Under the pieces are notes generated by a model, which saw only the letters and a list, made by a program, of their open reading frames with translations, was not told where the DNA came from and searched no databases. From the NCBI GenBank assembly GCA_030550675.1, contig JAUQOW010000009.1, positions 1 to 40,210 on the forward strand: a stretch of DNA of 40,210 bases, given 5' to 3'. Each line of letters starts with the position of its first letter. Position 1 is the first letter of the stretch. Of the stretch, positions 5,769-26,895 are shown piece after piece. This DNA is from Chloroflexota bacterium (lineage in GTDB: Bacteria > Chloroflexota > Chloroflexia > Chloroflexales > Roseiflexaceae). The translations under genes were made by a program, and so were the position numbers.

Positions 5769-7043
5769 TTACGCCAGCCTGATCAGGTGGTAGTTCTTGC
5801 GCCCCTTGCGCAGGACGATAAACCGTCCGCCGATGCTGTCGTTCAGCGTCAGGCGACGCCCCAGATCGGCGCTCTGGACGTTGTTGACGTAGATGCCGCC
5901 GCCCTCAATCGCGCGCCGCGCGTCGCTCTTCGATGTGGCGACGCCGCAGCGCACCAGGGCATCGACCAGAGCCATCCCCTCCCCTTCAAAGTCGTGGCGC
6001 GGGAGCGTCGTTGAAGGCACATCCTCAAAGATATCCGCTACATCATCGGCGCTGAGGCTCGCCAGCGATCCGCCGAACAGCGCCTGCGACGCCTCTTCAG
6101 CGCGCGTCAGCGCCGTTTCGCCGTGCACCATGCGCGTGACGTCGCGCGCCAGACGCTGCTGCGCAGCGCGACGCTCCGGCTGACGCGCCGTGATCTGTTC
6201 CAGCTCTTCGATTTCGGCGGCGCTCAGCCAGGTGAAATACCTCAGATATTTCCCGACGTCCGCATCGTCGACGTTGTACCAGAACTGGTAGAACCGGTAG
6301 GGCGACGTGCGCTTCGGATCGAGCCATACCGCACCCGACTCGGTCTTGCCGAACTTCGTGCCATCCGCCTTCGTCACCAGCGGATAGACCAGCCCATACG
6401 CCTTTTGCCCGAACGTGCGCCGGATCAATTCAATGCCGGCAGTAATGTTTCCCCACTGATCACTGCCGCCCGCCTGGAGTTTGCAGCCATGATGCTCGAA
6501 GAGATAGGCGAAATCGTATGCCTGGAGCAGCATGTAACTGAACTCGGTGAACGAAATGCCGGTTTCGCTGCTCATGCGTGAACGGACCGAGTCCTTCGCC
6601 AGCATGTAGTTGACCGTCAGATGCTTGCCGACGTCGCGCAGAAAATCGATGAGCGACAGGCGCGTCAGCCAGTCGGCGTTGTTGAGCAGTCTGGCGGAAT
6701 GGTCACCGGCGTTGAAGTCGAGAAACTGAGCCAGTTGACGTTTGATCGCCTCGACATTTGCGGCGACCTGTTCTTTGCTGAGCAGGGGACGTTCCTGCGT
6801 TTTGCCGCTCGGATCGCCGATCAGCCCGGTGCCGCCGCCTGCCAGCGCAATTGGCGCGTGCCCCCAGCGCTGAAAACGCGCCAGGGTCAGCAGCGGCAGT
6901 AAATGACCGATGTGCAGACTGTCGGCGCTGGGATCGAACCCGATGTAGAGCGTCACCCGTTCGCGCGCCAGCAGTTCTTCAAGACCTTCACTGCTTTCGT
7001 AGAGCAGCCCGCGCCAGCGAAGTTCGTCAAGTATTGTTGTCAT
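5769..7043 (-). CDS. tyrS: Tyrosyl-tRNA synthetase
   Basis: The enzyme charges tRNA-Tyr using ATP. The 424-residue protein has a class I catalytic core with the HIGH motif as HIGH in [10 protein letters not shown], and the KMSKS loop as KFGKT. The tRNA anticodon side ends in an S4 domain (about 355-424, [20 protein letters not shown]). The start at 7043 gives the family N-terminus [13 protein letters not shown]; a longer frame upstream only translates the heptamer repeats. No Shine-Dalgarno sequence precedes this ATG, which is unusual. It is transcribed from an extended -10 promoter through a repeat-made leader. Confidence 0.97.
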
Positions 7044-7120
7044 GGAACTGAGAACTGAGAAACTGAGAACTGAGAACCGAGAACCGAGAACCAAGAATTG
7101 AGAACCGGGAGTCGAGAACT
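7044..7120. repeat. Heptamer tandem repeat in the tyrS leader
   Basis: About eleven imperfect copies of GAGAACT/GAGAACC stand head to tail on the plus strand, so the tyrS leader reads as repeated (A/G)GTTCTC. The block fills nearly all of the space between the tyrS promoter and its start codon. Copies vary at the last two bases, with one 8-base unit. Confidence 0.85.
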
Positions 7121-7121
7121 T

Positions 7122-7130
7122 AGCATACCA
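7122..7130 (-). promoter_or_regulatory. Extended -10 promoter of tyrS
   Basis: On the minus strand the sequence is TGGTATGCT, one base different from the element before rpsO. It lies just upstream of the heptamer block and 79 bases before the tyrS start codon. Confidence 0.55.
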
Positions 7131-7211
7131 GCAATGCCGCAGATCGTCAAAAGTGAATGAATATTTCCTCTGAGTCGTCACTTCTGCCTGGATTGGCAGA
7201 GAGTCGTCGTG

Positions 7212-7217
7212 TATACT
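7212..7217 (+). promoter_or_regulatory. -10 box of the YbaK-domain gene
   Basis: TATACT lies 32 bases before the start codon. The bases ahead are GTG, so the TGn extension is not exact. A TTGGCA at 7193-7198 is only 13 bases upstream, too close for a normal -35. Confidence 0.4.
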
Positions 7218-7248
7218 GGGAGATTAACAGGCACAAGGAGGTGCTGCA

Positions 7249-7740
7249 ATGACGTGTCTCGAACGCCTGAGCGCATACCTGCGCGAACATCGCGTTTCGT
7301 ACACGATTCGCCATCATCCCACCGCGTACACTGCTTCCGACGTTGCCGCTTACGAACACGTGCCGCCTCACACCTTCGCCAAAGTCGTGATGGTTTTCAT
7401 CGACGGACGACTGGCAATGCTTGTCGTGCCCGCCGACACACGCGCTGACCTGGTGCGCCTCGCCGAGATCATTGGCGCCCGTGAAATCTGCCTGGCGGAC
7501 GAGCGGGAATTCGCGCCCGTATTTCCCGACTGTGAGCCTGGCGCAATGCCGCCATTCGGCAATCTGTACAACATACCGGTGTACCTGGACCGTGACCTTG
7601 CCGAATGTGAAACGATAACATTCCAGGCTGGCACACACCAGGACGCCATCAGTATGCGAAGTGAGGATTTCATCCGTCTTGCGCGTCCATTTATTGCATC
7701 GTTTGAACGCGACATCCACATGCTGGCGGGTCATTTCTGA
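7249..7740 (+). CDS. YbaK / prolyl-tRNA editing-domain protein
   Basis: The 163-residue protein matches the YbaK/ProX fold: N-terminal RLSAYLREHRVSYTIRHHP, then TASDVAAYEHVPPHTFAKVVMVF with the conserved Lys that places the substrate, and the PPFGNLYNIPVYLD loop near the C-terminus. Members remove wrongly attached amino acids from tRNA. Which amino acid is cleared here cannot be read from the sequence. AGGAGGTG lies six bases before the ATG. It lies next to tyrS but is divergent from it and has its own promoter. Confidence 0.88.
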   Translation: MTCLERLSAYLREHRVSYTIRHHPTAYTASDVAAYEHVPPHTFAKVVMVFIDGRLAMLVVPADTRADLVRLAEIIGAREICLADEREFAPVFPDCEPGAMPPFGNLYNIPVYLDRDLAECETITFQAGTHQDAISMRSEDFIRLARPFIASFERDIHMLAGHF

Positions 7741-13446: not shown

Positions 13447-15222
13447 TTAGGAATTTGCCGAAGGCGCACCCGCAGTTTCCATCGCTGGCGCTGGAGCGCC
13501 GGCGAGCTTCGCCTTTTCTTCCTCGACCAGCACGCGTCGCAGCACTTTGCCGACCATCGTCTTAGGCAGCTCGGTGCGGAACTCAATCTCACGCGGCACC
13601 TTGTACGGCGCGAGGTGCTGTTTGCAAAACTCGCGAATCTCGTCCGGCGTCGCCGTTTCACCCGGCTTGAGCACAATAAACGCCTTAATCGTATCATCGC
13701 CGCGAGCCGGGTTCGGAATGCCGACAACCACCGCTTCGAGCACCTTGGGATGCGCGAAGAGCACTTCCTCGACATCGCGCGGCAGCACCTTGTACCCCGA
13801 CGCGATCATCATGTCCTTCTTGCGGTCCACGACGTAGAAGTACCCTTCCTCATCGACCTTGCAAATATCGCCGGTGCGCAGCCAGCCATCAGGCGTAAAC
13901 GCCGCTTCCGTTTCTTCGGGGCGGTTCCAGTACCCCTTCATCACCATCGGACCCTTGACGACCAACTCGCCTTCTTTGTCCGATCCGAACGGAATGTCCT
14001 CCCCGGTTTCCAGGTCGATGATCTTCGCATCGACATCCGGCAGCGGAATGCCGATCGACCCCTTCTTGCGCTTGCCGAACACCGGGTTGCAGTGCGAAAC
14101 CGGCGAGAGTTCCGTCATGCCGAAGCCTTCAACCAGGCGACCGCCCGTGATCTGACCGAACTTCTCCTGGATTTCGATCGGCAGCGGCGCTGAACCGCTG
14201 ATGCAGGCTTTGATCGACTTCAGATCGTACTGATTGATGCGCGGATGATTGACGATGCGGATATACATCGCCGGCACGCCGGGGAACAGGGTCGAGCGTT
14301 CGCGCTGCATCACCTCCATCACGTGATCGATGTCGCGCGGGTTGGGAACAATCGTCAACTCGCCGCCCAGGTACAGACCATAGATCATCGCCACGGTCAT
14401 GCCATAGACGTGGAAGAACGGAATGGCGCACATCATCTTTTCCCTGCCATAATCCGTCTTCGTCAGCCACGACGCCACCTGCACCGTATTCGCCACCAGA
14501 TTGCGATGGGTGAGCATCGCCGCCTTAGGCAGACCCGTGGTGCCGCCGGTGTACTGGAACAGCGCGACATCTTCAGGCTGCACATCGACCGCTGGCGGGT
14601 TGGGTCCATAACGTTCAAGCAAGTGCTGGAAGAGATAGACGCTCGAATCGTTCGAGACATCGACCCAATCCGGCTGTTTGCTCTGTTTGGCGTGCACCAG
14701 GAAGCGCGACAGCGGACCAAGCGTATCGTAGATATACGCAACGATGACGCGCTTAAGCGGCGTTTCAGCGCGGATTTCCTGCAGGCGAGGATAGAACAGG
14801 TTCAGCAGCACAATCGTCTCAGAGCCGCTGTCAACCAATTGATGCTTCAATTCGCGCGCGGTGTACGTCGGGTTGTTGTTAACGATAATAGCGCCGATGC
14901 GCATCGCTGCAAAGAACGCAATCACATAATGCGGCGAGTTGGGCAGCATCAGCGCAACGCGGTCGCCCTTTCGCACTCCCAACTGATAGAGCGCATTGGC
15001 GAAGCGGTCAACCATCTCGTTGAGCTTCTGGTAGGTCATTTTACCGCCAACGGTGTACAGACCGCGCGCCAGGTAGCTCAACACAAAATTCGTTGCAGTG
15101 TTGTACGGATACTTCCTCGTGCTTTCCGCCAGAAAATGGTTCAGGGTGACATTGGGGATTTCGACAGAACGCGGTACATTCGGCTCATAGCTCGCAAACC
15201 AGGGTCGATCCATGTTGTTCAT
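13447..15222 (-). CDS. Long-chain fatty acid-CoA ligase (AMP-forming)
   Basis: The 591-residue enzyme activates a carboxylic acid to its CoA thioester through an acyl-AMP. The adenylation P-loop is YTGGTTGLPKAAMLTH, followed by FHVYGMTVAMIYG, the GFGMTELSPVSHCNP nucleotide motif, TGDICKVDEEGYFYVVDRKKDMMI hinge region and the C-terminal catalytic Lys in PKTMVGKVLRR. These fit the FadD/long-chain group. The ATG at 15222 has AAAGGAG eight bases ahead. The C-terminus has a short Ala/Pro-rich tail. The CpXC and dehydrogenase genes follow on the same strand, so an operon is likely. Confidence 0.93.
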   Translation of the reverse strand: MNNMDRPWFASYEPNVPRSVEIPNVTLNHFLAESTRKYPYNTATNFVLSYLARGLYTVGGKMTYQKLNEMVDRFANALYQLGVRKGDRVALMLPNSPHYVIAFFAAMRIGAIIVNNNPTYTARELKHQLVDSGSETIVLLNLFYPRLQEIRAETPLKRVIVAYIYDTLGPLSRFLVHAKQSKQPDWVDVSNDSSVYLFQHLLERYGPNPPAVDVQPEDVALFQYTGGTTGLPKAAMLTHRNLVANTVQVASWLTKTDYGREKMMCAIPFFHVYGMTVAMIYGLYLGGELTIVPNPRDIDHVMEVMQRERSTLFPGVPAMYIRIVNHPRINQYDLKSIKACISGSAPLPIEIQEKFGQITGGRLVEGFGMTELSPVSHCNPVFGKRKKGSIGIPLPDVDAKIIDLETGEDIPFGSDKEGELVVKGPMVMKGYWNRPEETEAAFTPDGWLRTGDICKVDEEGYFYVVDRKKDMMIASGYKVLPRDVEEVLFAHPKVLEAVVVGIPNPARGDDTIKAFIVLKPGETATPDEIREFCKQHLAPYKVPREIEFRTELPKTMVGKVLRRVLVEEEKAKLAGAPAPAMETAGAPSANS

Positions 15223-15372
15223 GATACATGCTCCTTTGCATGGCGTCAGGCGGCGCACCAGACCCCATCACTTACTCCGAATCAAACAAAGCAGCGCCGT
15301 CGAGCAAACCTTCGACCAACCGCGCTGCCAGGCGACCTGCACCCGGCAGCGACGTTCCCTGAATCCGCGACG

Positions 15373-18441: not shown

Positions 18442-18509
18442 CCGGTATGGCCGTCAGTCGGGAAGGGCAGGGCATCCCCTGAATCGCCGGGTATTTTTCC
18501 CTCTGGTGA

Positions 18510-18774
18510 TCCACCCAGAGCGCGAAGGGGCACGAAGCAAATATTTCTTCGTGTCCCTTCGTGGATGCGCTGAGTTTTGTCCACCAAGAGCACGAAGGAA
18601 CACGAAGCGAATATTCTCCCCTTCGTGTCCCTTCGTGGCCTTCGTGGATGCGCTACTTTTATCCACTAAGAACACCAAGGAACACGAAGCGAATATTCTC
18701 CCCTTCGCGTCCCTTCGTGGCCTTCGTGGATGCGCTGAGTTTTGTCCACCAAAAGCACGAAGGAACACGAAGCA
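18510..18774. repeat. Tandem repeat array A, about 82-bp units
   Basis: Units start at 18510 (70 bp, shortened), 18580, 18662 and 18745 (cut after about 30 bp). Each runs TCCACCAAGAGCACGAAGG, CACGAAG, a short AATATTCTCC spacer, CTTCGTGTCCCTTCGTGG, TTCGTGGATGCGCT and a T-rich joint. The CACGAAGG and CCTTCGTG parts are complementary, so each unit can fold into a hairpin. The same unit occurs at 26564-26866 in the same orientation. Open frames running through it on either strand are not genes. Confidence 0.9.
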
Positions 18775-19042
18775 ATGGATGAAACGCCGTTTTGCACTGG
18801 TCTTTGCTTGCGACCATCCAACAGTTTGGCGCGAGACGCCTCTAGCCAGAGACAACCATATCGGCGGACATTGGTTCCCGGTTGGCTCAATTCGCCTCTC
18901 ACGAATGACTTTGGGGATGTACCTGGCGCGGTCGTGTCTGTTGCCTTGCGAAAGTTTCAGCCAGAGCAGCAGTTTGAACAGGCTGCAGCGTTCCAGAGCA
19001 TGTCAGCAGCGCACCTGCGCGCCCCGTTTTCGTTCACAATCT
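18775..19042. other. Unassigned region between array A and the AraC gene
   Basis: This 268-base stretch has open frames on the plus strand but no ribosome site, start or family match that I can support. It may be a gene remnant or simple spacer. Confidence 0.4.
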
Positions 19043-19903
19043 CTAGAGCGTTTTTCCCACACGCCGACGCACGTACACCGACGGCGGCTCGCCAAAGTGC
19101 TGTCGGAACACACGGCTGAAGTGGGTCAGATCGTGAAAGCCCCAGCGTGTAGCAATGGCGCCGATGCTGCCGCGATCGCCGCCGCGACGGAGCAACTCCC
19201 TTCGAATCACATCCAGACGACGAATCGTAATCCAGCGGGCGACAGTAACGCCGGTGGGAGAGAAGAGCGTATGCAGATAGCGAACAGAGATACCGAATTG
19301 GTTGGCAATAGAGCGCGGGTTGAGTTGATCATCATCGAGGCGCCGCTCAATGTAGGTGCAGATAGCGGTAAGCAGCTCACGACGATGGGTTGACAGGCGT
19401 CTGCTCAACGTCTGCTCACTGCGAAGCCACACAATGATGGCATCGAGTGCGCCGTCTCCCAGCGCCTGGCGCTGCTCAGCGCTGAGCTGCGGCGCTTGCG
19501 ATGCAAAGGCTGCCAGCATGTGCGCACAAATAGCGCCGCTTCCCTGGATGGCTGACAGCTTCCTCCCGATTACATCTGTGATGCTGCCCAACCGGGCGGT
19601 CAGTGCGGCTGCGGGAATCATCGCCAGCAAAGCACGCCCTGGAGGATGCGGCGTGAGCGTCAACGAAGCGTGCCCATCCCACAACCATCCAGCGCCAGGG
19701 TCTAATTCAGTGTACCGCTGTTGATACGTCGATCCCGACTCTTCGACGCTGATTGCGAGCGTACCTCCATCTGCTAGCGCCAACATCAGTACGTGCGATT
19801 CGGATGCCAGCGCAGGCGTAAAGTGGACTGCCTGTTCCAGCCATGCCACCTCAATCGTCCCGTACTGCCACAGGGCAGGCTTCACATCGTTGTGTTGATC
19901 CAT
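19043..19903 (-). CDS. AraC-family transcriptional regulator
   Basis: The 286-residue protein has an N-terminal sensor domain (about 1-170) of the AraC-binding-like type, with DPGAGWLWDGHASLTL, and a C-terminal double helix-turn-helix (about 180-280): LNPRSIANQFGISVRYLHTLF followed by GSIGAIATRWGFHDLTHFSRVFRQHFGEPPSVY, the AraC signature. It is divergent from the acetone carboxylase operon, with 162 bases between starts, so it is the likely regulator. This differs from the sigma-54 activator AcxR known beside acetone carboxylase in Proteobacteria. Confidence 0.92.
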   Translation of the reverse strand: MDQHNDVKPALWQYGTIEVAWLEQAVHFTPALASESHVLMLALADGGTLAISVEESGSTYQQRYTELDPGAGWLWDGHASLTLTPHPPGRALLAMIPAAALTARLGSITDVIGRKLSAIQGSGAICAHMLAAFASQAPQLSAEQRQALGDGALDAIIVWLRSEQTLSRRLSTHRRELLTAICTYIERRLDDDQLNPRSIANQFGISVRYLHTLFSPTGVTVARWITIRRLDVIRRELLRRGGDRGSIGAIATRWGFHDLTHFSRVFRQHFGEPPSVYVRRRVGKTL

Positions 19904-19922
19904 GTCATCTCCATTGCTGACA

Positions 19923-19967
19923 GATTGTTCGCGGAGATTGTGCGCAAACAGACAAGAAACTGTTCGC
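19923..19967. promoter_or_regulatory. Candidate AraC-type operator, three direct half-sites
   Basis: Three 10-base copies near GATTGTTCGC lie at 19923-19932, 19936-19945 (GATTGTGCGC) and 19958-19967 (AACTGTTCGC). Start-to-start spacings are 13 and 22 bases, the latter near two helical turns. They sit between the AraC gene and acxA. AraC proteins usually bind direct repeats, so this is the best operator candidate, but it is untested. Confidence 0.35.
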
Positions 19968-20065
19968 TATGAGCCATGCACATAGGGGGCATTTCTGCCA
20001 TGATAACAGAGATCCCACTATCCTCGAAGTGCATATCACCTGCAGTGAGCAAAGGAGCACACCGC

Positions 20066-22213
20066 ATGAGCAACGGCACGGGGTCCCGTCCGCGCATCCT
20101 GGCGATTGATGCCGGGGGCACAATGACCGACACGTTCATCATCAACGAACGGGGTGAGTTCGTCGTGGGCAAAGCGCAGACCACGCCGCACGACGAGTCG
20201 ATAGGCTTCCTCAACTCAACCCGCGATGCGTTGCACTATTGGGGTATGAGCGTCGAAGAAGCCTTCAGTACGATGGTCAGCGGCATCTATTCGGGCACTG
20301 TCATGCTCAATCGCCTGCTCGAGCGCAAGGGGCGCAACGTCGGCGTGATCGTCACCGCTGGGATGGAAGACTATCTGCGCATGGAGCGCGCCATTCAAAC
20401 CTATTTGGGATACTCCTATTCGGATCGCCTGCATATTGTGACTCACCGTCACAATCCGCCGCTGGTTCCGCGCAAACGTATTTTTGGCGTGCGCGAGCGG
20501 ATCGATGTGTTTGGCAAAATCGCCATTCCGCTCTACGAGCACGAGGCGCGTGCAGCCGTGGAGCAGTTGCTAGCGATGGGTGTGGACTCGATTGTCGTCA
20601 ACCTGATCTACTCCTTCAAGAATCCGGCGCACGAACGGCGGATACGGGAGATTGCCGAGGAGGTGATGGCAGCGGAGGGACGAAGCGTGCCCATCTACCT
20701 TTCATCGGAACTCTACCCGCTGCGCGCCGACTTTCCCCGCCTGAATGCAACGCTGCTTGAAGCGTATGCCGCTGAGCCTTCGCGCGAACAATTGCAGAAG
20801 GTGCGTGACGTAACCCGCGCTCACGGAGCAAAGTTTGACCTGCGGGTCATGGCCAGCCACGGCGGCACAATCTCCATTGATGCACGCGAACTGGCGCGCA
20901 CTCTAATCTCTGGTCCGATTGGAGGGGTCATTGGCGCGAAGTATCTGGCGGAACGGATCGGGGTGCAGAACGTCGCCTGCACTGACATCGGCGGCACATC
21001 GTTTGACATCGCTCTGATCACTGACGGCGAATTTCAGATTAAGAATGTGCCGGACATGGCGCGTTTCCTTCTCAACATTCCGCTGGTGCAGATCGACTCG
21101 GTCGGTGCAGGAACCGGCTCATTCGTGCGAGTCAATCCCGGCAATCGACGTATCGAGATAGGTCCCGACAGCGCTGGCGCCCGGGTCGGCGTCTGTTATC
21201 CTGAAGGCGGCGTCGATACCGTGACCATCAGCGATTGTAATGTCGTGTTGGGCTACCTCAACCCCGACAACTTCCTGGGCGGCGAGATCCGGCTCGACCG
21301 GCAGCGGGCGATTGCCGCTGTGCAGCAACAGATCGCCGAACCGCTCGGTCTTGATGTCTATGCGGCGGCGGCAGGCGTGATCGAGCTGTTTGAGGATAAT
21401 CTGAAGAACGATCTGCTGGGGCGGATCATTGGCAAGGGGTATGGTCCTGAAAATTATACACTGCTTTCCTACGGCGGCGGCGGACCGTTGCACGTGGGCG
21501 GATACTCGGCAGGGCTCAATTTCGAGGACGTGCTCATTCCCACCTGGGCGCCGGGCTTCTCAGCGTTCGGATGCGCCTGCGGCGACTTCGAGTATCGTTA
21601 TGATCGTTCGATTGACCTGCCTATCCTCCCCGGCATCGACGATGCAGCACGCATGCAACTCGGCGCCGTCATCAATGCTGCGTGGGACATGCTCGCCGAC
21701 CAGGTAGCCGCCGAGTTCGCCAAGAGCGGCATTCCGCGTGAGCAGATTCATTTCAAACCAGCCATTCGCATGCAGTATTACGGGCAGCTCAACGACCTGG
21801 AGTTTCGTTCGCCGGTGCAGCGAATCGAGGAGCCGGGCGACATTTTCCAACTACTCCGCGCTTTCGACGATCTCTATGCCAAAATCTACTATAACGCAGC
21901 ACGCACGCCCGATTTCGGCTATCTGGCAACGCGAGCGATCATGACTGGCTCGGTGGATGTGGAGAAACCCGCCCTGCCGCATCGCGCCGAGACGGGTCCT
22001 GATCCCGACCCGGAGGCACAGGTCAGTACTCGCGAGATCTACTGGAAAGGCGCATGGATTCCCACGCCGATCTTCGCCATGGATCGATTGCATGCAGGCA
22101 ACCGGATTGTCGGACCAGCCATCATTGAAGCGCCGGCATGCACCCTGGTGGTTCCACCCGGTCGGCAGGTGTGGCTTGATCAAAATGATATCTTCCATAT
22201 GCGGCAGGCATAA
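20066..22213 (+). CDS. acxA: Acetone carboxylase beta subunit (HyuA/oxoprolinase family)
   Basis: Acetone carboxylase makes acetoacetate from acetone and bicarbonate with ATP. The 715-residue protein is close to the known beta subunit length. It has the ATP-binding fold of the hydantoinase/oxoprolinase A family: ILAIDAGGTMTDTFI near residue 11-25, ACTDIGGTSFDIALI in the middle and LLSYGGGGPLHVGGYS later, all phosphate- or adenosine-contacting loops. The start at 20066 has AAAGGAG eight bases ahead; an in-frame extension upstream has no ribosome site. The alpha and gamma genes follow in the same direction, which separates it from plain hydantoinases. Confidence 0.9.
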   Translation: MSNGTGSRPRILAIDAGGTMTDTFIINERGEFVVGKAQTTPHDESIGFLNSTRDALHYWGMSVEEAFSTMVSGIYSGTVMLNRLLERKGRNVGVIVTAGMEDYLRMERAIQTYLGYSYSDRLHIVTHRHNPPLVPRKRIFGVRERIDVFGKIAIPLYEHEARAAVEQLLAMGVDSIVVNLIYSFKNPAHERRIREIAEEVMAAEGRSVPIYLSSELYPLRADFPRLNATLLEAYAAEPSREQLQKVRDVTRAHGAKFDLRVMASHGGTISIDARELARTLISGPIGGVIGAKYLAERIGVQNVACTDIGGTSFDIALITDGEFQIKNVPDMARFLLNIPLVQIDSVGAGTGSFVRVNPGNRRIEIGPDSAGARVGVCYPEGGVDTVTISDCNVVLGYLNPDNFLGGEIRLDRQRAIAAVQQQIAEPLGLDVYAAAAGVIELFEDNLKNDLLGRIIGKGYGPENYTLLSYGGGGPLHVGGYSAGLNFEDVLIPTWAPGFSAFGCACGDFEYRYDRSIDLPILPGIDDAARMQLGAVINAAWDMLADQVAAEFAKSGIPREQIHFKPAIRMQYYGQLNDLEFRSPVQRIEEPGDIFQLLRAFDDLYAKIYYNAARTPDFGYLATRAIMTGSVDVEKPALPHRAETGPDPDPEAQVSTREIYWKGAWIPTPIFAMDRLHAGNRIVGPAIIEAPACTLVVPPGRQVWLDQNDIFHMRQA

Positions 22214-22259
22214 GAAGAACTGAGGTCGCCAGGCATCATTGTCGAAGGAGACGTGACGT

Positions 22260-24473
22260 ATGACAACCATCACGGACAATCCGGCTGGCGTTGGCATTGG
22301 ATGGGGTGGGCGATCGCTCCGATCGATGCTTGAAGAGAGCGAGCGCCTCTTTGCTGAAACCGGGCGCTATTACGGCATCGAACGCCTGACACTTAAGGAA
22401 GAAGATCCAATTCGCTATGAGAAACTCTTCTCGCGTCTGCGCGGCGGTATGGTCAATGCCCGCGAAACGGCGTTGAATATCTCTGCATCGCCGATTGTGC
22501 GCGAGATTGGCGAACTCTGCTTCGCCCTTTATACGCCTGAAGGTGATAGCATCACCCTCTCAACCGGGATTATGGTCCACGTGCATACGATGTCCGATGC
22601 CATCAAGTGGATGATCCGCAACGATTACGAAGAAAATCCTGGCATCGAAGATGGTGACATCTTCTGTAACAACGACGCTTTCATCGGCGATGTCCACAAT
22701 GCCGACGTCCAGGACATCCTGCCGATCTTCTGGGAGGGCGAATTGATTGGATGGGCGGCTGGCGTGACCCACGTGATCGATGTCGGCGCGCCTCTACCTT
22801 CCGGCATGCCAATGGGTCCCATCCATCGCTATGAGGACGGCTTCATGCTCTCGGCGCAAAAGGTCGGCTCGAAAAACCGGCTTCACCGCGACTATGTGCT
22901 GCGCTGCCAGACTGCTGTGCGGCTGCCGTTCTACTGGATGCTCGACCAGCAAACGCGCATTGCTGGCTGCCAGATGATTAAGGAAGCCGTCCACCGGGTC
23001 ATCCGTGAAGAAGGCATTGAGACCTACAAACGGTTCATCCGCGAAGTGATCGAAGACGGACGCCGTTCGTTTATCCAGCGCGTCAAGGAATTGACCATTC
23101 CCGGCAAATACAGCGTGCCGAGCTTTATGGATGTCACGTTCGGAGGCGAAGTGGGCCGACTCCCGCCGGAGGCGGCCAAAGATACGCTAATGCACGCGCC
23201 GCTCAGTGTAGAGATTGGTCCCAAGGGCGAATTCAAGGTCAGTTTCGAGGGGGCGAGCAAGTGGGGCTACCACTCGTTCAATGCCCCGCCGAGTGCGATG
23301 CAGGGTGGACTATGGGTGCTGCTCAGTCAGACGCTCGTGCCCAACGACAAAGTCAACGACGGCGCCTATTTCGCCATCCAAAACAATTTGCCCTACGGCT
23401 CGTGGGCCAATCCTGACAATAAGTTCTGCTCGGTGAGCATTGCCTGGGTGTACCTCATTCCCGGCTACTCGGGTATTTTCCGCGCTTTGAGCATGGCGTA
23501 TGTCGGGCGGGGATATCTGGAAGAGGTCATTGCCGGGTATCCCGGCACCTGGAACATGACGCAGGGCGGCGGTCCCAATCACTATGGTCAGCAAGGCGGC
23601 TGGACGAACTTCGAGATGAGTTCGTGCGGCACATCGGCGCGCTATGTCATGGACGGCGAGGATACCTGCGCGGCGATGTGGAACCCTGAAGGGGATATGG
23701 GAGATGTGGAAGCCTGGGAAATCCTCGAACCGCTGCTCTACCTGGGACGGCGGATTCGCCCCAATTCGTTTGGCCCAGGCAAGTTCCGCGGCGGCAGCGG
23801 GTTTGAGTCGATCCGCATGGTCTACAATACTCCCAGCCAGGTGTTGTACAACCTCGGCGAAGGCAACGTTTTCCTTGGCACGGGTCTCTTTGGCGGATAT
23901 CCGGCATTTGCAGGCTATCGCCAGAGCATCAAACACACCGACATGGCACGCCGCATCGCCCACCAACTGCCCTACCCGATCAGTGATGAAGACCCGGAAA
24001 ACAGCCAGATGATCGCCCATGTCGAAGGGGTGCTCGAACGCGATAAGCGCACCATTCACCTGCCCGATCCACACTCAGAGTATGATCTCTACCTGAGCGT
24101 ACTGCGCGGCGGCAACGGTCTAGGCGATGTGCTGGAGCGCGATCCGGCGGCAGTCGTGCGCGATCTGAACGAAGGGTATCTGCTGCCGCGCTTCGCCGCC
24201 AGCACCTATGGCGTGGTCGCATTCCAGAACGCCGCTGGCGAATGGGAACTGGATGTCGAGGCGACGGAAGAACGGCGATCAGCCATGCGGCGTGAGCGTA
24301 TCGAGCAGAGCATCCCGGTGGAAGAATGGATCGCTCAGCAACGAACCAGGGTCGTGCAGAAGGATTTCATCGCGCCAGTGCGACAGATGTACCAGGAGAG
24401 CATGAGCCTCAGCCCGACATGGGCTGCCCACTTCCGCTCGTTCTGGGGTCTGGACGACAACTGGTCACTGTAA
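22260..24473 (+). CDS. acxB: Acetone carboxylase alpha subunit (HyuB family)
   Basis: The 737-residue protein belongs to the hydantoinase B/oxoprolinase family and would be the Mn-binding subunit that joins activated acetone and carbonate. Features include NARETALNISASPIVREIGELC, the DGDIFCNNDAFIGDVHNAD block with several Asp/His/Asn candidates for metal, WAAGVTHVIDVGAPLPSGM, and the Gly-rich GPGKFRGGSGFES. It begins 46 bases after acxA with GAAGGAG seven bases before the ATG. Length is a little shorter than the Xanthobacter subunit. Confidence 0.9.
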   Translation: MTTITDNPAGVGIGWGGRSLRSMLEESERLFAETGRYYGIERLTLKEEDPIRYEKLFSRLRGGMVNARETALNISASPIVREIGELCFALYTPEGDSITLSTGIMVHVHTMSDAIKWMIRNDYEENPGIEDGDIFCNNDAFIGDVHNADVQDILPIFWEGELIGWAAGVTHVIDVGAPLPSGMPMGPIHRYEDGFMLSAQKVGSKNRLHRDYVLRCQTAVRLPFYWMLDQQTRIAGCQMIKEAVHRVIREEGIETYKRFIREVIEDGRRSFIQRVKELTIPGKYSVPSFMDVTFGGEVGRLPPEAAKDTLMHAPLSVEIGPKGEFKVSFEGASKWGYHSFNAPPSAMQGGLWVLLSQTLVPNDKVNDGAYFAIQNNLPYGSWANPDNKFCSVSIAWVYLIPGYSGIFRALSMAYVGRGYLEEVIAGYPGTWNMTQGGGPNHYGQQGGWTNFEMSSCGTSARYVMDGEDTCAAMWNPEGDMGDVEAWEILEPLLYLGRRIRPNSFGPGKFRGGSGFESIRMVYNTPSQVLYNLGEGNVFLGTGLFGGYPAFAGYRQSIKHTDMARRIAHQLPYPISDEDPENSQMIAHVEGVLERDKRTIHLPDPHSEYDLYLSVLRGGNGLGDVLERDPAAVVRDLNEGYLLPRFAASTYGVVAFQNAAGEWELDVEATEERRSAMRRERIEQSIPVEEWIAQQRTRVVQKDFIAPVRQMYQESMSLSPTWAAHFRSFWGLDDNWSL

Positions 24474-24489
24474 TTTGCAGGGGAGCGCT

Positions 24490-24978
24490 ATGACGCACTA
24501 CGACACATCGACCATCGCTGGTCTGGTTGACGGCAAGCTGGAATGGCCGCAACTCAAGGCGATGATGAGCAATTTCAAGGATCCAGACCGGTTTGACAAG
24601 TATATCGCTGTGTTGCAGGAACGGGTTCCCTGGGACGATCAAATCCTTTTGCCGTTGGGACCGCACCTGTTTATCGTGCGCAAAACTGACGGCAGCATCG
24701 TGACGAAGAGTCGCAGCGGCTATGAATTTGGCGACTACCGCCAGAACTGGAAGCTGAAGGCGCGCATCCGCGTCCGTGATACCGAAGCGAGTCTTCAGGA
24801 ACTCTACCCGGCAATGATGCACTGCACGCCGGGATGGATGGAACTGCGCGAGTACATTGACCCACTCGACGGTACGTTGCTCGAAGTTGAGGCGGTGCCG
24901 CCGGGGTATCCGATTATCCACAGTTTTCAGCCCGATCTGGAGACCTTTTATCGTGAGTGGCTGGGACGCGAGTTGTAG
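24490..24978 (+). CDS. acxC: Acetone carboxylase gamma subunit
   Basis: The 162-residue protein matches the small gamma subunit, which is specific to acetone carboxylase and separates it from hydantoinases. Clear blocks are YEFGDYRQNWKLKARIRVRD, LYPAMMHCTPGWMELREYIDP with a Cys/His-type zinc-site region, and the C-terminal PIIHSFQPDLETFYREWL. The ATG at 24490 follows GGGGAGCGCT. It is 16 bases after acxB. Confidence 0.9.
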   Translation: MTHYDTSTIAGLVDGKLEWPQLKAMMSNFKDPDRFDKYIAVLQERVPWDDQILLPLGPHLFIVRKTDGSIVTKSRSGYEFGDYRQNWKLKARIRVRDTEASLQELYPAMMHCTPGWMELREYIDPLDGTLLEVEAVPPGYPIIHSFQPDLETFYREWLGREL

Positions 24979-24982
24979 CCAG

Positions 24983-25017
24983 AACCCTGCGGAAGGATCA
25001 ACTCCTTCCGCAGGGTT
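24983..25017 (+). other. 15-bp perfect hairpin between acxC and the ligase
   Basis: AACCCTGCGGAAGGA at 24983-24997 and its exact complement at 25003-25017 enclose the loop TCAAC. It begins four bases after the acxC stop codon and ends 13 bases before the ligase ATG. No T tract follows, so it is probably an mRNA stability or expression-ratio element rather than a full terminator. Confidence 0.7.
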
Positions 25018-25030
25018 GATCCAAGGTTCT

Positions 25031-26560
25031 ATGGACGCATCACTCTACGCACTGCTGGAACGGCAGGCCGCTGCTCGCGGCGAACAGATCTATCTCTACT
25101 GGCGCGATGAAGAGGTCAGTTATGCTGAGTTTGCCCGGCGGGTGCGCCGGGCGGCTCATGGACTGAGCGAGCTCGGTGTAAGCCACAGCGACAAGGTCGC
25201 ACTGTTGCTTGGCAACTGCCCGGAGTTTCTGATCGTTTTCTTTGCCTGCGCGGCGCTTGGCGCAGTTGCAGTGCCCATCAACCCGCGCCTGAAGGCGGAA
25301 GAGGTGCAGTACATTCTGCAAAACTCCGACAGCGTGTTGCTGGTCATCGCCGATGCGCTGTTGTCGGTTATCGCTCCAGCGCTCGACGGATGCCCGGTGC
25401 TGCGCCACATCGTTATTGTCGGCGCTGTTCCGGAGTCGTCACTCAGCCTGCCGCTCCATCCCTTTGCCAGCCTCTCTGATGCCGCCGATCATCCAGTCAG
25501 CGCAACTGTCGGACCAGATGACATCGCCAGCATTATTTACACCTCCGGCACCACAGGGCGTCCGAAGGGCGTTCTGCTTTCGCACGGCAACTACCTGTTT
25601 GATGTCTGGTCGTATGCGACAGCCTGCCAGATCAGCGATGCGGATCGACTGCTCTGCATGCTGCCCCTCTTTCACGTTAATGCACAGGTCGCCAGCGTTC
25701 TGTCGGCGCTGCACCAGGGTGGCGCGTTGATTCTCCTGGAGGGCTTTTCACCACGCGAGTTTCTGCCAGCGCTGGCGCGTTACCGCGCCACCAGTTTCAG
25801 CGCCGTGCCGACAATTTACGCAATTCTAAACAACCTTCCCGATGCCGGGCAGTATGACCTGCGTAGTCTGCGCGTGTGCATCTGCGGCGCCGCGCCAATG
25901 CCCGTCGAGGTCTTTGAGCGTTTCGAGCAAACATATCGGGCGTTTATTCTTGAAGGCTACGGACTGAGCGAGGGCACATGCGTCAGCACCCTCAATCCGC
26001 TCGATGGTCGTCCGCGCAAGATTGGCTCTATTGGTGTGGCGCTCCCTGGACAGGAGGTGCGTATCGTGGACGACCAGGGACAGCCCGTGCCGCCAGGGGT
26101 CGTGGGTGAGATCGTCATCCACGGACCCAACGTGATGCAGGGGTACTACAAGAACTCCGAAGCAACCGCTGCTGCTATCCGCGATGGATGGCTCTATACC
26201 GGCGATCTCGGCTCGTATGACGCCGATGGCTACTTCTACATCGTCGGGCGCAAGAAGGAAATGATCATCCGCGGCGGCGAGAATATCTATCCCAAAGAGA
26301 TCGAGGAGGTGCTCTACCGGCATCCGGCAGTGGCGGAGGCGGCTGTAGTCGGGTTACCTGATCCGATCTGGGGCGAGCAGGTCGCTGCATTTATCGTTCC
26401 GCGCCCCGATGTGCCGGTGAGCGTCGAGGCGATTATCGCACACTGCCAGGCGCTCCTGGCTGACTTCAAGTGTCCGCAGGTCGTGAAGTTTGTTGAGTCT
26501 TTCCCCAAAACGGCAACCGGGAAGATTCAAAAGAACCGGTTGGTGGAGCAGTATGTCTGA
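25031..26560 (+). CDS. AMP-forming acyl-CoA ligase, candidate acetoacetate activator
   Basis: The 509-residue enzyme has the adenylation P-loop YTSGTTGRPKGVLLSH, the FHVNAQVASVLSAL and EGYGLSEGTCVSTLNP motifs, the hinge YTGDLGSYDADGYFYIVGRKKEMI and the catalytic Lys in PKTATGKIQKNRL. It resembles medium-chain or FadD-like ligases. Placed directly after acetone carboxylase, it may turn acetoacetate into acetoacetyl-CoA, which thiolase could split; this is inference from position. The ribosome site is weak (AAGG, four bases before ATG). Array B begins almost at its stop. Confidence 0.88.
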   Translation: MDASLYALLERQAAARGEQIYLYWRDEEVSYAEFARRVRRAAHGLSELGVSHSDKVALLLGNCPEFLIVFFACAALGAVAVPINPRLKAEEVQYILQNSDSVLLVIADALLSVIAPALDGCPVLRHIVIVGAVPESSLSLPLHPFASLSDAADHPVSATVGPDDIASIIYTSGTTGRPKGVLLSHGNYLFDVWSYATACQISDADRLLCMLPLFHVNAQVASVLSALHQGGALILLEGFSPREFLPALARYRATSFSAVPTIYAILNNLPDAGQYDLRSLRVCICGAAPMPVEVFERFEQTYRAFILEGYGLSEGTCVSTLNPLDGRPRKIGSIGVALPGQEVRIVDDQGQPVPPGVVGEIVIHGPNVMQGYYKNSEATAAAIRDGWLYTGDLGSYDADGYFYIVGRKKEMIIRGGENIYPKEIEEVLYRHPAVAEAAVVGLPDPIWGEQVAAFIVPRPDVPVSVEAIIAHCQALLADFKCPQVVKFVESFPKTATGKIQKNRLVEQYV

Positions 26561-26563
26561 TCA

Positions 26564-26866
26564 TCCACCAAGAGCACGAAGGAATACGAAGTGTTTTTCC
26601 CCCTTCGTGTCCCTTCGTGGCCTTCGTGGATGCACTACTTTTATCCACTAAGAACACCAAGGAACACGAAGCGAATATTCTCCCCTTCGTGTCCCTTCGT
26701 GGCCTTCGTGGATGCGCTACTTTTATCCACTAAGAACACGAAGGGACACGAAGTGCTTTTCCCCCTTTCGTGTCCCTTCGTGACCTTCGTGGATGCGCTA
26801 CTTTTATCCACTAAGAACACCAAGGAACACGAAGCGAATATTCTCCCCTTCGTGACCTTCGTGGAT
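26564..26866. repeat. Tandem repeat array B, about 81-bp units
   Basis: Units begin at 26564, 26644, 26726 and 26807; the last ends near 26866. They are near-identical to array A and in the same orientation. One unit (26726) has CACGAAGGGACACGAAG in place of CACCAAGGAACACGAAG, and two have GTGTTTTTCCCC- or GTGCTTTTCCCC-type spacers in place of GCGAATATTCTCC. Each can fold as a hairpin. Open frames on both strands here are repeat artefacts. Confidence 0.9.
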
Positions 26867-26895
26867 TATTTACGACCTACAAATACTCGTTGGCA

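Follow-up and report, generated by a model that had tools for sequence, protein, structure and literature searches.

Gene content of the locus and identity of the host

The locus described here lies at positions 19043-26560 of a 40,210-nucleotide stretch of DNA (the window), which is contig C317 of a 5,056,782-base genome (G000). It encodes a probable ketone carboxylase of the acetone carboxylase type together with an acyl-CoA ligase, and comprises five genes, all of them intact open reading frames. A gene for an AraC-type regulator of 286 amino acids (aa) (19043..19903, minus strand) is divergent from an operon on the plus strand encoding the beta subunit (AcxA, HyuA-type, nucleotide-binding, 715 aa; 20066..22213), the alpha subunit (AcxB, HyuB-type, with the catalytic metal site, 737 aa; 22260..24473), the gamma subunit (AcxC, 162 aa, lacking all four zinc cysteines; 24490..24978) and an AMP-forming, FadD-like acyl-CoA ligase of about 509 aa (25031..26560). 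The open frame of beta begins at position 19976, and the ATG at 20066, preceded by AAAGGAG, is the start kept in all four Roseiflexus-type loci (those of the window, of genomes G003 and G005, and locus L007). Gamma most likely starts at the ATG at 24490, after GGGGAG, and 25031-26560 is most likely the full extent of the ligase gene. The five-gene locus reported in a preliminary description of this DNA is confirmed, and the interpretation given there, an acetone carboxylase module with its own ligase, is partly supported.

The locus was compared among six genomes of the genus Roseiflexus (the window's own, G000, and G001 to G005, of which G003 is a single contig of 5,801,598 bases) and among 400 genomes of Chloroflexota. 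The nearest named relative of the window alpha subunit is an uncultured Roseiflexus record (96%), and photosynthetic reaction-centre genes (PF00124 over the cut-off) are present in five of the six genus genomes, that of the window included; the remaining one, which is 82% complete, gave a weak PF00124 match only. The host is therefore a phototroph of the genus Roseiflexus, a possibility that the preliminary description had raised.

The subunits are of the acetone carboxylase type

In phmmer searches against the PDB the beta subunit scored 876 bits with acetone carboxylase (5m45_B), 410 bits with acetophenone carboxylase and at most 282 bits with chains of the hydantoinase/oxoprolinase type. 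The corresponding scores for alpha were 771 (5m45_A), 131 and, for hydantoinase-type chains, at most 68 bits. Acetone carboxylase gamma was the sole match of the gamma subunit (178 bits to 5svb_C; at E up to 1, two distinct sequences were matched). Matches this strong cannot be due to chance. Beta matches the Pfam family Hydantoinase_A and both flanking domains, alpha matches Hydantoinase_B, and gamma passes PF08882 (Acetone_carb_G) with 133.7 bits at a cut-off of 21. The only subunits encoded between regulator and ligase are alpha, beta and a separate gamma; the operon has no alpha-prime or epsilon gene. An identity as acetophenone carboxylase or hydantoinase was rejected on the basis of the PDB scores and of models NF042975, NF042976 and NF042960, which remained far below their cut-offs. 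The PDB scores thus bear out the assignment of all three subunits to the acetone carboxylase type, and the grouping of alpha and beta with acetophenone carboxylases or hydantoinases, which had been named as the outcome that would speak against it, did not occur.

The window enzyme resembles the acetone carboxylase of Xanthobacter autotrophicus Py2 (5m45, 5svb, 5svc; PMC5543143) in having three subunits, with full-length similarity of all three. According to the available text of that paper, Glu89, His150, Asp153 and His175 of alpha are metal ligands and His111 lies near the site. All five residues are kept in the window, and an alignment of 66 alpha rows has His150 in 62, Asp153 in 64, His175 in 65 and Glu89 in 57 (with Asp in another five). 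In beta, the nucleotide-stacking residue Phe405 is invariant (52 of 52 rows); Ser391 and Asn578 are likewise present in the window. The reading frames are intact in three genus genomes, in which alpha and beta share 91-97% identity at the protein level versus 81-86% at the DNA level, implying selection.

Like the acetophenone carboxylase of Aromatoleum aromaticum (5l9w; available text of PMC5214803), the window enzyme belongs to the ATP-dependent ketone carboxylase family and has a CoA ligase, there one for a 3-oxo acid, in its operon; unlike it, it comes without alpha-prime and epsilon genes, and its alpha scores higher with acetone carboxylase (see above). Chloroflexota RBG-1351 (PMC3971608) and DEH-C11 (PMC4959651) are reported to have enzymes of the same branch within the same phylum. 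They are of other lineages, however, and the accessible parts of these papers mention a linked ligase or AraC gene for neither; for RBG-1351 they propose that a 3-oxoacid CoA transferase and thiolases handle the product. Among the papers searched, none joins 'acetone carboxylase' and 'Roseiflexus'.

Three further observations concern the subunits elsewhere. At nine mostly actinobacterial loci (L031, L034-L039, L045 and L050) the matches to alpha and to gamma fall within a single long open frame, and the two look fused. A Natronorubrum plasmid (L060) carries two HyuB-type genes and a gamma gene followed directly by a ligase gene, an archaeal parallel to the gene order of the window. The window's own genome encodes a second, unlinked HyuB-type protein (L001, G000:C116:9124-10665), which is 23% identical to alpha.

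The gamma subunit lacks the zinc cysteines but is predicted to keep its fold

In the Xanthobacter enzyme, Cys74, Cys76, Cys124 and Cys127 of gamma are zinc ligands (PMC5543143, available text). The accessible part of PMC5214803 presents the four cysteines as a signature motif of the family and the zinc as thought to be structural, and that of PMC10865871 describes it as apparently structural; a zinc-less gamma is not mentioned in the portions available of these three papers. In the window the four columns read S, S, D, D, and we infer from these residues that zinc is absent. Among 60 gammas besides that of Xanthobacter, 35 have all four cysteines, 22 lack three or four of them, and three distant ones differ at the first position only. 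The 22 cysteine-poor gammas comprise 11 with SSDD, 7 with SWDS, 2 with SACS and one each with TACS and SSDS. The cysteine state changes at least five times on the alpha tree (55 labelled rows, of which 33 have the cysteines and 22 do not), and a tree neighbour of Xanthobacter, Cereibacter L059, also lacks the zinc cysteines. Since the window has SSDD and so many other gammas, L059 included, lack the cysteines, these residues do not mark the whole acetone carboxylase branch, and we do not claim the window enzyme as a canonical acetone carboxylase.

A structure of the window gamma predicted from a 26-row alignment had a mean predicted local distance difference test score (pLDDT) of 92.9 and superposed on Xanthobacter gamma (5svb_F) with Z 19.9 and a root-mean-square deviation (rmsd) of 2.2 over 159 aligned residues. 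Comparison with the small subunit of acetophenone carboxylase (5l9w_C) gave Z 9.2 and rmsd 3.3 over 105 residues, and only chains of acetone and acetophenone carboxylases scored above Z 3. The high pLDDT and the superposition on 5svb_F lead us to predict that the gamma fold persists despite the loss of the cysteines.

The view that gamma makes the call specific is not supported as put by these analyses: the zinc cysteines are lost, the predicted fold also resembles the acetophenone carboxylase small subunit, and gamma-bearing operons also occur beside a choline transporter gene. The latter are acetone-carboxylase-like alpha/beta/gamma operons of Shinella and Sinorhizobium (L062, L063); their neighbours include a short-chain dehydrogenase/reductase (SDR) gene and one for the binding protein of a choline ABC transporter, and their enzymes probably act on another substrate. 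In other Chloroflexota, weak PF08882 matches were seen at L076-L087; ten of the twelve lie inside open frames of 737-1098 aa, all have cysteines, and they are perhaps gamma-like domains fused to large subunits.

Position in the family tree

In the alpha tree the window, G003, G005 and L007 belong to a supported set of 11 rows, the other members of which come from Nitrospinota, Gamma- and Alphaproteobacteria and metagenome-assembled genomes of Cupriavidus; SSDD is found in all ten members with a gamma. A joint clade of this set with the characterised enzymes of Xanthobacter and Cupriavidus metallidurans (the latter cited as characterised in the available text of PMC3971608) was rejected by the approximately unbiased (AU) test for alpha (p-AU 9e-5) and not rejected for beta (p 0.31). 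An AU constraint that united the characterised enzymes with no more than the four rows of Roseiflexus type was set aside because it split a supported clade (alpha p 1e-33, beta p 0.42). All trees were of a quick kind, computed with no bootstrap. Alphas under 560 residues (L044, L049, L055) were left out of all alpha trees, betas under 560 residues out of the beta trees, the distant long branches L091-L095 out of the trees used for the cysteine-state changes and the AU tests, and L012 (the beta match of which is a 29% paralogue) and L018 (a long branch) out of the last beta tree.

The linked ligase is tied to the carboxylase

The ligase carries both AMP-binding domains (PF00501, PF13193) and, among the 25 models listed, passes only the broad 'long-chain-fatty-acid--CoA ligase' model NF004837 (526.7 bits, cut-off 476). 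Its best-scoring solved chains are feruloyl-CoA synthetase, fatty-acyl-CoA synthase and oxalate-CoA ligases. Like acetoacetyl-CoA synthetase (AACS, TIGR01217) it belongs to the AMP-forming superfamily. Unlike AACS it is on the FadD-like side, and with TIGR01217 it scored 68.1 bits (G000:C317:25109-26527), the cut-off being 520.9.

All three carboxylase-bearing genus genomes have an orthologue of this ligase (85-100%); the other three lack it, their best match being 44-46%. Among the 400 Chloroflexota genomes, in most of which the three best first-look candidates were scored, an orthologue (83-100% identity, E up to 1e-145) was found in four: the window's own, G003, G005 and G396. PF08882 matches were found in 17 of the 400, namely these four, with an SSDD gamma, and 13 others with cysteine-bearing gamma-like stretches. 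In G396, which is of another family, carboxylase and ligase lie on two separate contigs, each at a contig end; the PAS-GGDEF gene behind the ligase matches the stretch behind the ligase of G003. This co-occurrence bears out that the ligase is tied to the carboxylase.

The place of the ligase is occupied by different enzymes in related operons. True acetoacetyl-CoA ligases of the TIGR01217 type lie directly behind gamma at L014 and L024 (882 and 827 bits). The carboxylase operon of L046 (Amaricoccus) has a divergently oriented gene for a beta-keto acid cleavage enzyme (BKACE; 6579-7508) next to it. The operons of L025, L026, L047 and L052 are accompanied by an SDR gene and a FadD-like ligase, and those of L048 and L060 by a FadD-like ligase. 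Neighbouring open frames picked by length are partly antisense artefacts; for nine loci they were picked by codon GC and some of the genes were scanned. Because different enzyme families occupy this place, comparison with these operons supports a role of the window ligase in handling a 3-oxo acid, the chain length of which it leaves open.

Thiolases over the cut-off are encoded in all six genus genomes, and AACS models were matched in 13 of the 17 genomes to which 18 of these carboxylase loci belong. Succinyl-CoA:acetoacetate transferase was rejected as a partner: PF01144 is found in two of the six genus genomes only, and in the window genome the gene pair adjoins a catechol-dioxygenase-type gene and one of the iron-containing alcohol dehydrogenase (ADH) family, a setting that we take to be that of hydroxyquinol/maleylacetate breakdown. 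The surrounding region (L105, G000:C380:8000-24000) holds the catechol-dioxygenase-type gene, the iron-containing-ADH-family gene (presumably maleylacetate reductase), the CoA-transferase pair, a thiolase gene and, on visual inspection, genes for an ABC transporter. At 13450-15258 of the window, about 4.7 kb from the module described below, lies another gene for an AMP-binding ligase; since similar genes are present on matching contigs in all six genus genomes, it stands outside that module.

Regulation

The regulator is over the cut-offs of PF12833 (HTH_18, 75.6 bits) and PF00165 (HTH_AraC, 43.2 bits). Its N-terminal sensing part is weakly recognised, with AraC_binding_2 under the cut-off, and it is also under that of FeaR (NF007243; 107.7 versus 199 bits). 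Matches to it (E up to 1e-20) were obtained only in the three genus genomes that have the carboxylase. In the gap between regulator and operon, an alignment of the intergenic regions of the four Roseiflexus-type loci revealed a short kept block around AACAG-CAAGAAAC, a weakly supported candidate operator or promoter stretch at 19921..19968; no sigma-70-like promoter was found in this gap.

The acetone carboxylase activator AcxR, known from Proteobacteria, is a sigma-54 activator, and Xanthobacter itself has regulation of the sigma-54 type, which sets it apart from the window. The preliminary description had contrasted the AraC-type regulator with this arrangement. All four Roseiflexus-type loci indeed have a divergent AraC-type gene, and no sigma-54-type regulator was found within 6 kb of alpha in the DNA available for them. 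This is not a matter of the host phylum, however, as AraC-type genes also lie near the carboxylase at eight Pseudomonadota loci. Sigma-54-type regulators were found at 7 of 65 loci (the profile was built from five of those seven), and they lie beside the relatives L059 and L061. Of the 22 loci with a cysteine-poor gamma, 12 have an AraC-type gene no more than 6 kb from alpha, versus 1 of 35 with four cysteines (5.8 kb away), in a comparison that is uncorrected for relatedness, uses a profile built from eight genes that it then counted and includes many short contigs. The corresponding counts for sigma-54-type regulators are 1 of 22 and 6 of 35. Eight further loci, with gamma absent or unclear, are outside this comparison.

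The locus is an optional module within the genus

The carboxylase genes occur in three of the six genus genomes, and ligase and regulator were found in these same three. In the window, G003 and G005 all of these genes lie between trkH and an mnhG-type gene, and in the other three genomes the same site is empty, as determined by blastn of the window flanks to L106, L107 and L108. The flanks, identified by Pfam, consist of K+ transport genes (TrkA, TrkH) and Mrp/Mnh antiporter genes. In G002 they are 2 bases apart, at positions corresponding to 18536/26891, so that the absent stretch is 18537..26890; about 200 bases separate them in G004 and about 280 in G001. G003 has one more gene here, for a TauE/SafE-type exporter, which separates trkH from the regulator gene (L088, 3044-3808).

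By flank identity G001 groups with G003 (93.2%) and G002 with the window (90.1%). Presence and absence are thus mixed in both subgroups of the genus, which suggests most simply an old module that was lost at least twice; alternatively, the module may have been gained by recombination. A recent foreign insert was rejected, as module and flanks have diverged to much the same degree between species: window and L089 share 86.0% in the module and 84.1-86.3% in the flanks, and window and L088 share 81.3% in acxABC, 76.8% in the ligase gene, 70.7% in part of the regulator gene and 80.0 and 77.4% in the flanks. Arrays of repeats of about 82 nucleotides with the core CCCTTCGTGGCCTTCGTGGAT occur at 18509..18786 (left) and 26563..26881 (right). 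At up to two mismatches the core has 28 copies in the window's own genome, 24 in G005, 7 in G004, 4 in G002 and none in G003 or G001. As G003 has the module with no repeat match, the repeats are not required as its vehicle. Contamination was rejected as the source of the relative L007, the GC content of which (64.6% versus 58.5% for the window module) speaks for another genome.

Interpretation

We read the locus as a dispensable, probably inducible ketone-use cassette in which the linked ligase would activate the 3-oxo acid formed, acetone being the likeliest substrate; to this reading we assign a probability of about one half. The AraC-type protein would switch on acxABC and the ligase gene when a small ketone is present. 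By analogy with the Xanthobacter enzyme, beta would phosphorylate ketone and bicarbonate with ATP, and alpha would join the two at the metal site formed by Glu89, His150, Asp153 and His175, with gamma keeping its structural part in the absence of a zinc ion. The resulting 3-oxo acid (acetoacetate in the case of acetone) would be converted by the FadD-like ligase to a CoA thioester, which a thiolase encoded elsewhere would cleave to acetyl-CoA.

Several results weigh against this reading. The published four-cysteine signature is absent from the window gamma. Characterised enzymes sit in another clade of the alpha tree, so that acetone is inferred as substrate across about 47% alpha identity (46.8% with CH34, 47.2% with Cereibacter). 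Residue Glu85 of Xanthobacter alpha, which helps open a channel according to the available text of PMC5543143, is replaced by Arg in the window, although just 6 of the 66 rows have Glu at this position. Seven relatives in the alpha clade are from outside Chloroflexota (L008-L012, L027 and L048), and only L048 has a ligase behind gamma together with an AraC-type gene; at L009, L010 and L011 (about 22 kb each) neither was found near the operon, L010 having a 25% ligase match about 5.5 kb upstream of it. Finally, all six genus genomes encode a true AACS elsewhere (868-886 bits; that of the window genome on contig C161), and a second ligase for acetoacetate therefore looks redundant. The argument that acetoacetate needs activation and the ligase follows is accordingly not supported as put, the ligase being outside the AACS family.

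The main rival, which we regard as possible and clearly less probable, is that a larger or different ketone is the main substrate, with the linked ligase specific for its 3-oxo acid and the unlinked AACS serving other needs. The benzoylacetate-CoA ligase of the acetophenone pathway would be the model. This would explain why the carboxylase comes with a ligase of its own, not of the AACS type, in a genus that has AACS throughout. At L048, of the same alpha clade, the carboxylase is followed by genes for a ligase, an enoyl-CoA hydratase, an AraC-type protein, a hydratase/3-hydroxyacyl-CoA dehydrogenase fusion, a thiolase and an acyl-CoA dehydrogenase, a set exceeding the needs of acetone, and L008 has 2-hydroxyglutaryl-CoA-dehydratase-type, hydratase and GMC genes nearby. 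The Roseiflexus modules, however, are flanked by the K+ transport and antiporter genes, with no beta-oxidation genes among the flank genes scanned, and the window ligase shares only about 33% identity with those of L048 and L047, which are hence no guide to its substrate. Moreover, L024 pairs a cysteine-free gamma with a true acetoacetyl-CoA ligase, so that loss of the cysteines does not exclude acetone. A further alternative, that the enzyme is an acetone carboxylase relying on the unlinked AACS to activate its product while the linked, fatty-acid-type ligase only shares the operon, is improbable: the pass with only a broad fatty-acid subfamily model and the presence of the true AACS would fit, whereas the kept gene order and the co-occurrence in the same 4 of 400 genomes would be unexpected.

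A wider proposal, which we consider rather unlikely, is that ketone carboxylases with a zinc-free gamma, often near an AraC-type gene, are a recurrent class that uses ketones other than acetone, the 3-oxo acid passing to a dedicated ligase in Roseiflexus and some others. If true, Roseiflexus would have an optional way of incorporating CO2 with a ketone, yet to be named, of hot-spring mats.

Three features are new with respect to the systems compared here: a gamma subunit devoid of zinc cysteines, a ligase that is tied to the carboxylase but not of the AACS type, and an optional module with empty sites in other genomes of the genus. The first two, like the alpha clade and the regulator type, set the window apart from the Xanthobacter enzyme and its operon. 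As the cysteine state changed at least five times on the tree, natural cysteine-free and zinc enzymes can be compared, and the role of the gamma zinc is directly testable. The tied ligase provides a testable handle on the substrate range. Since the module is either present or absent at one site, ketone use may vary naturally among members of the genus Roseiflexus as a presence/absence trait.

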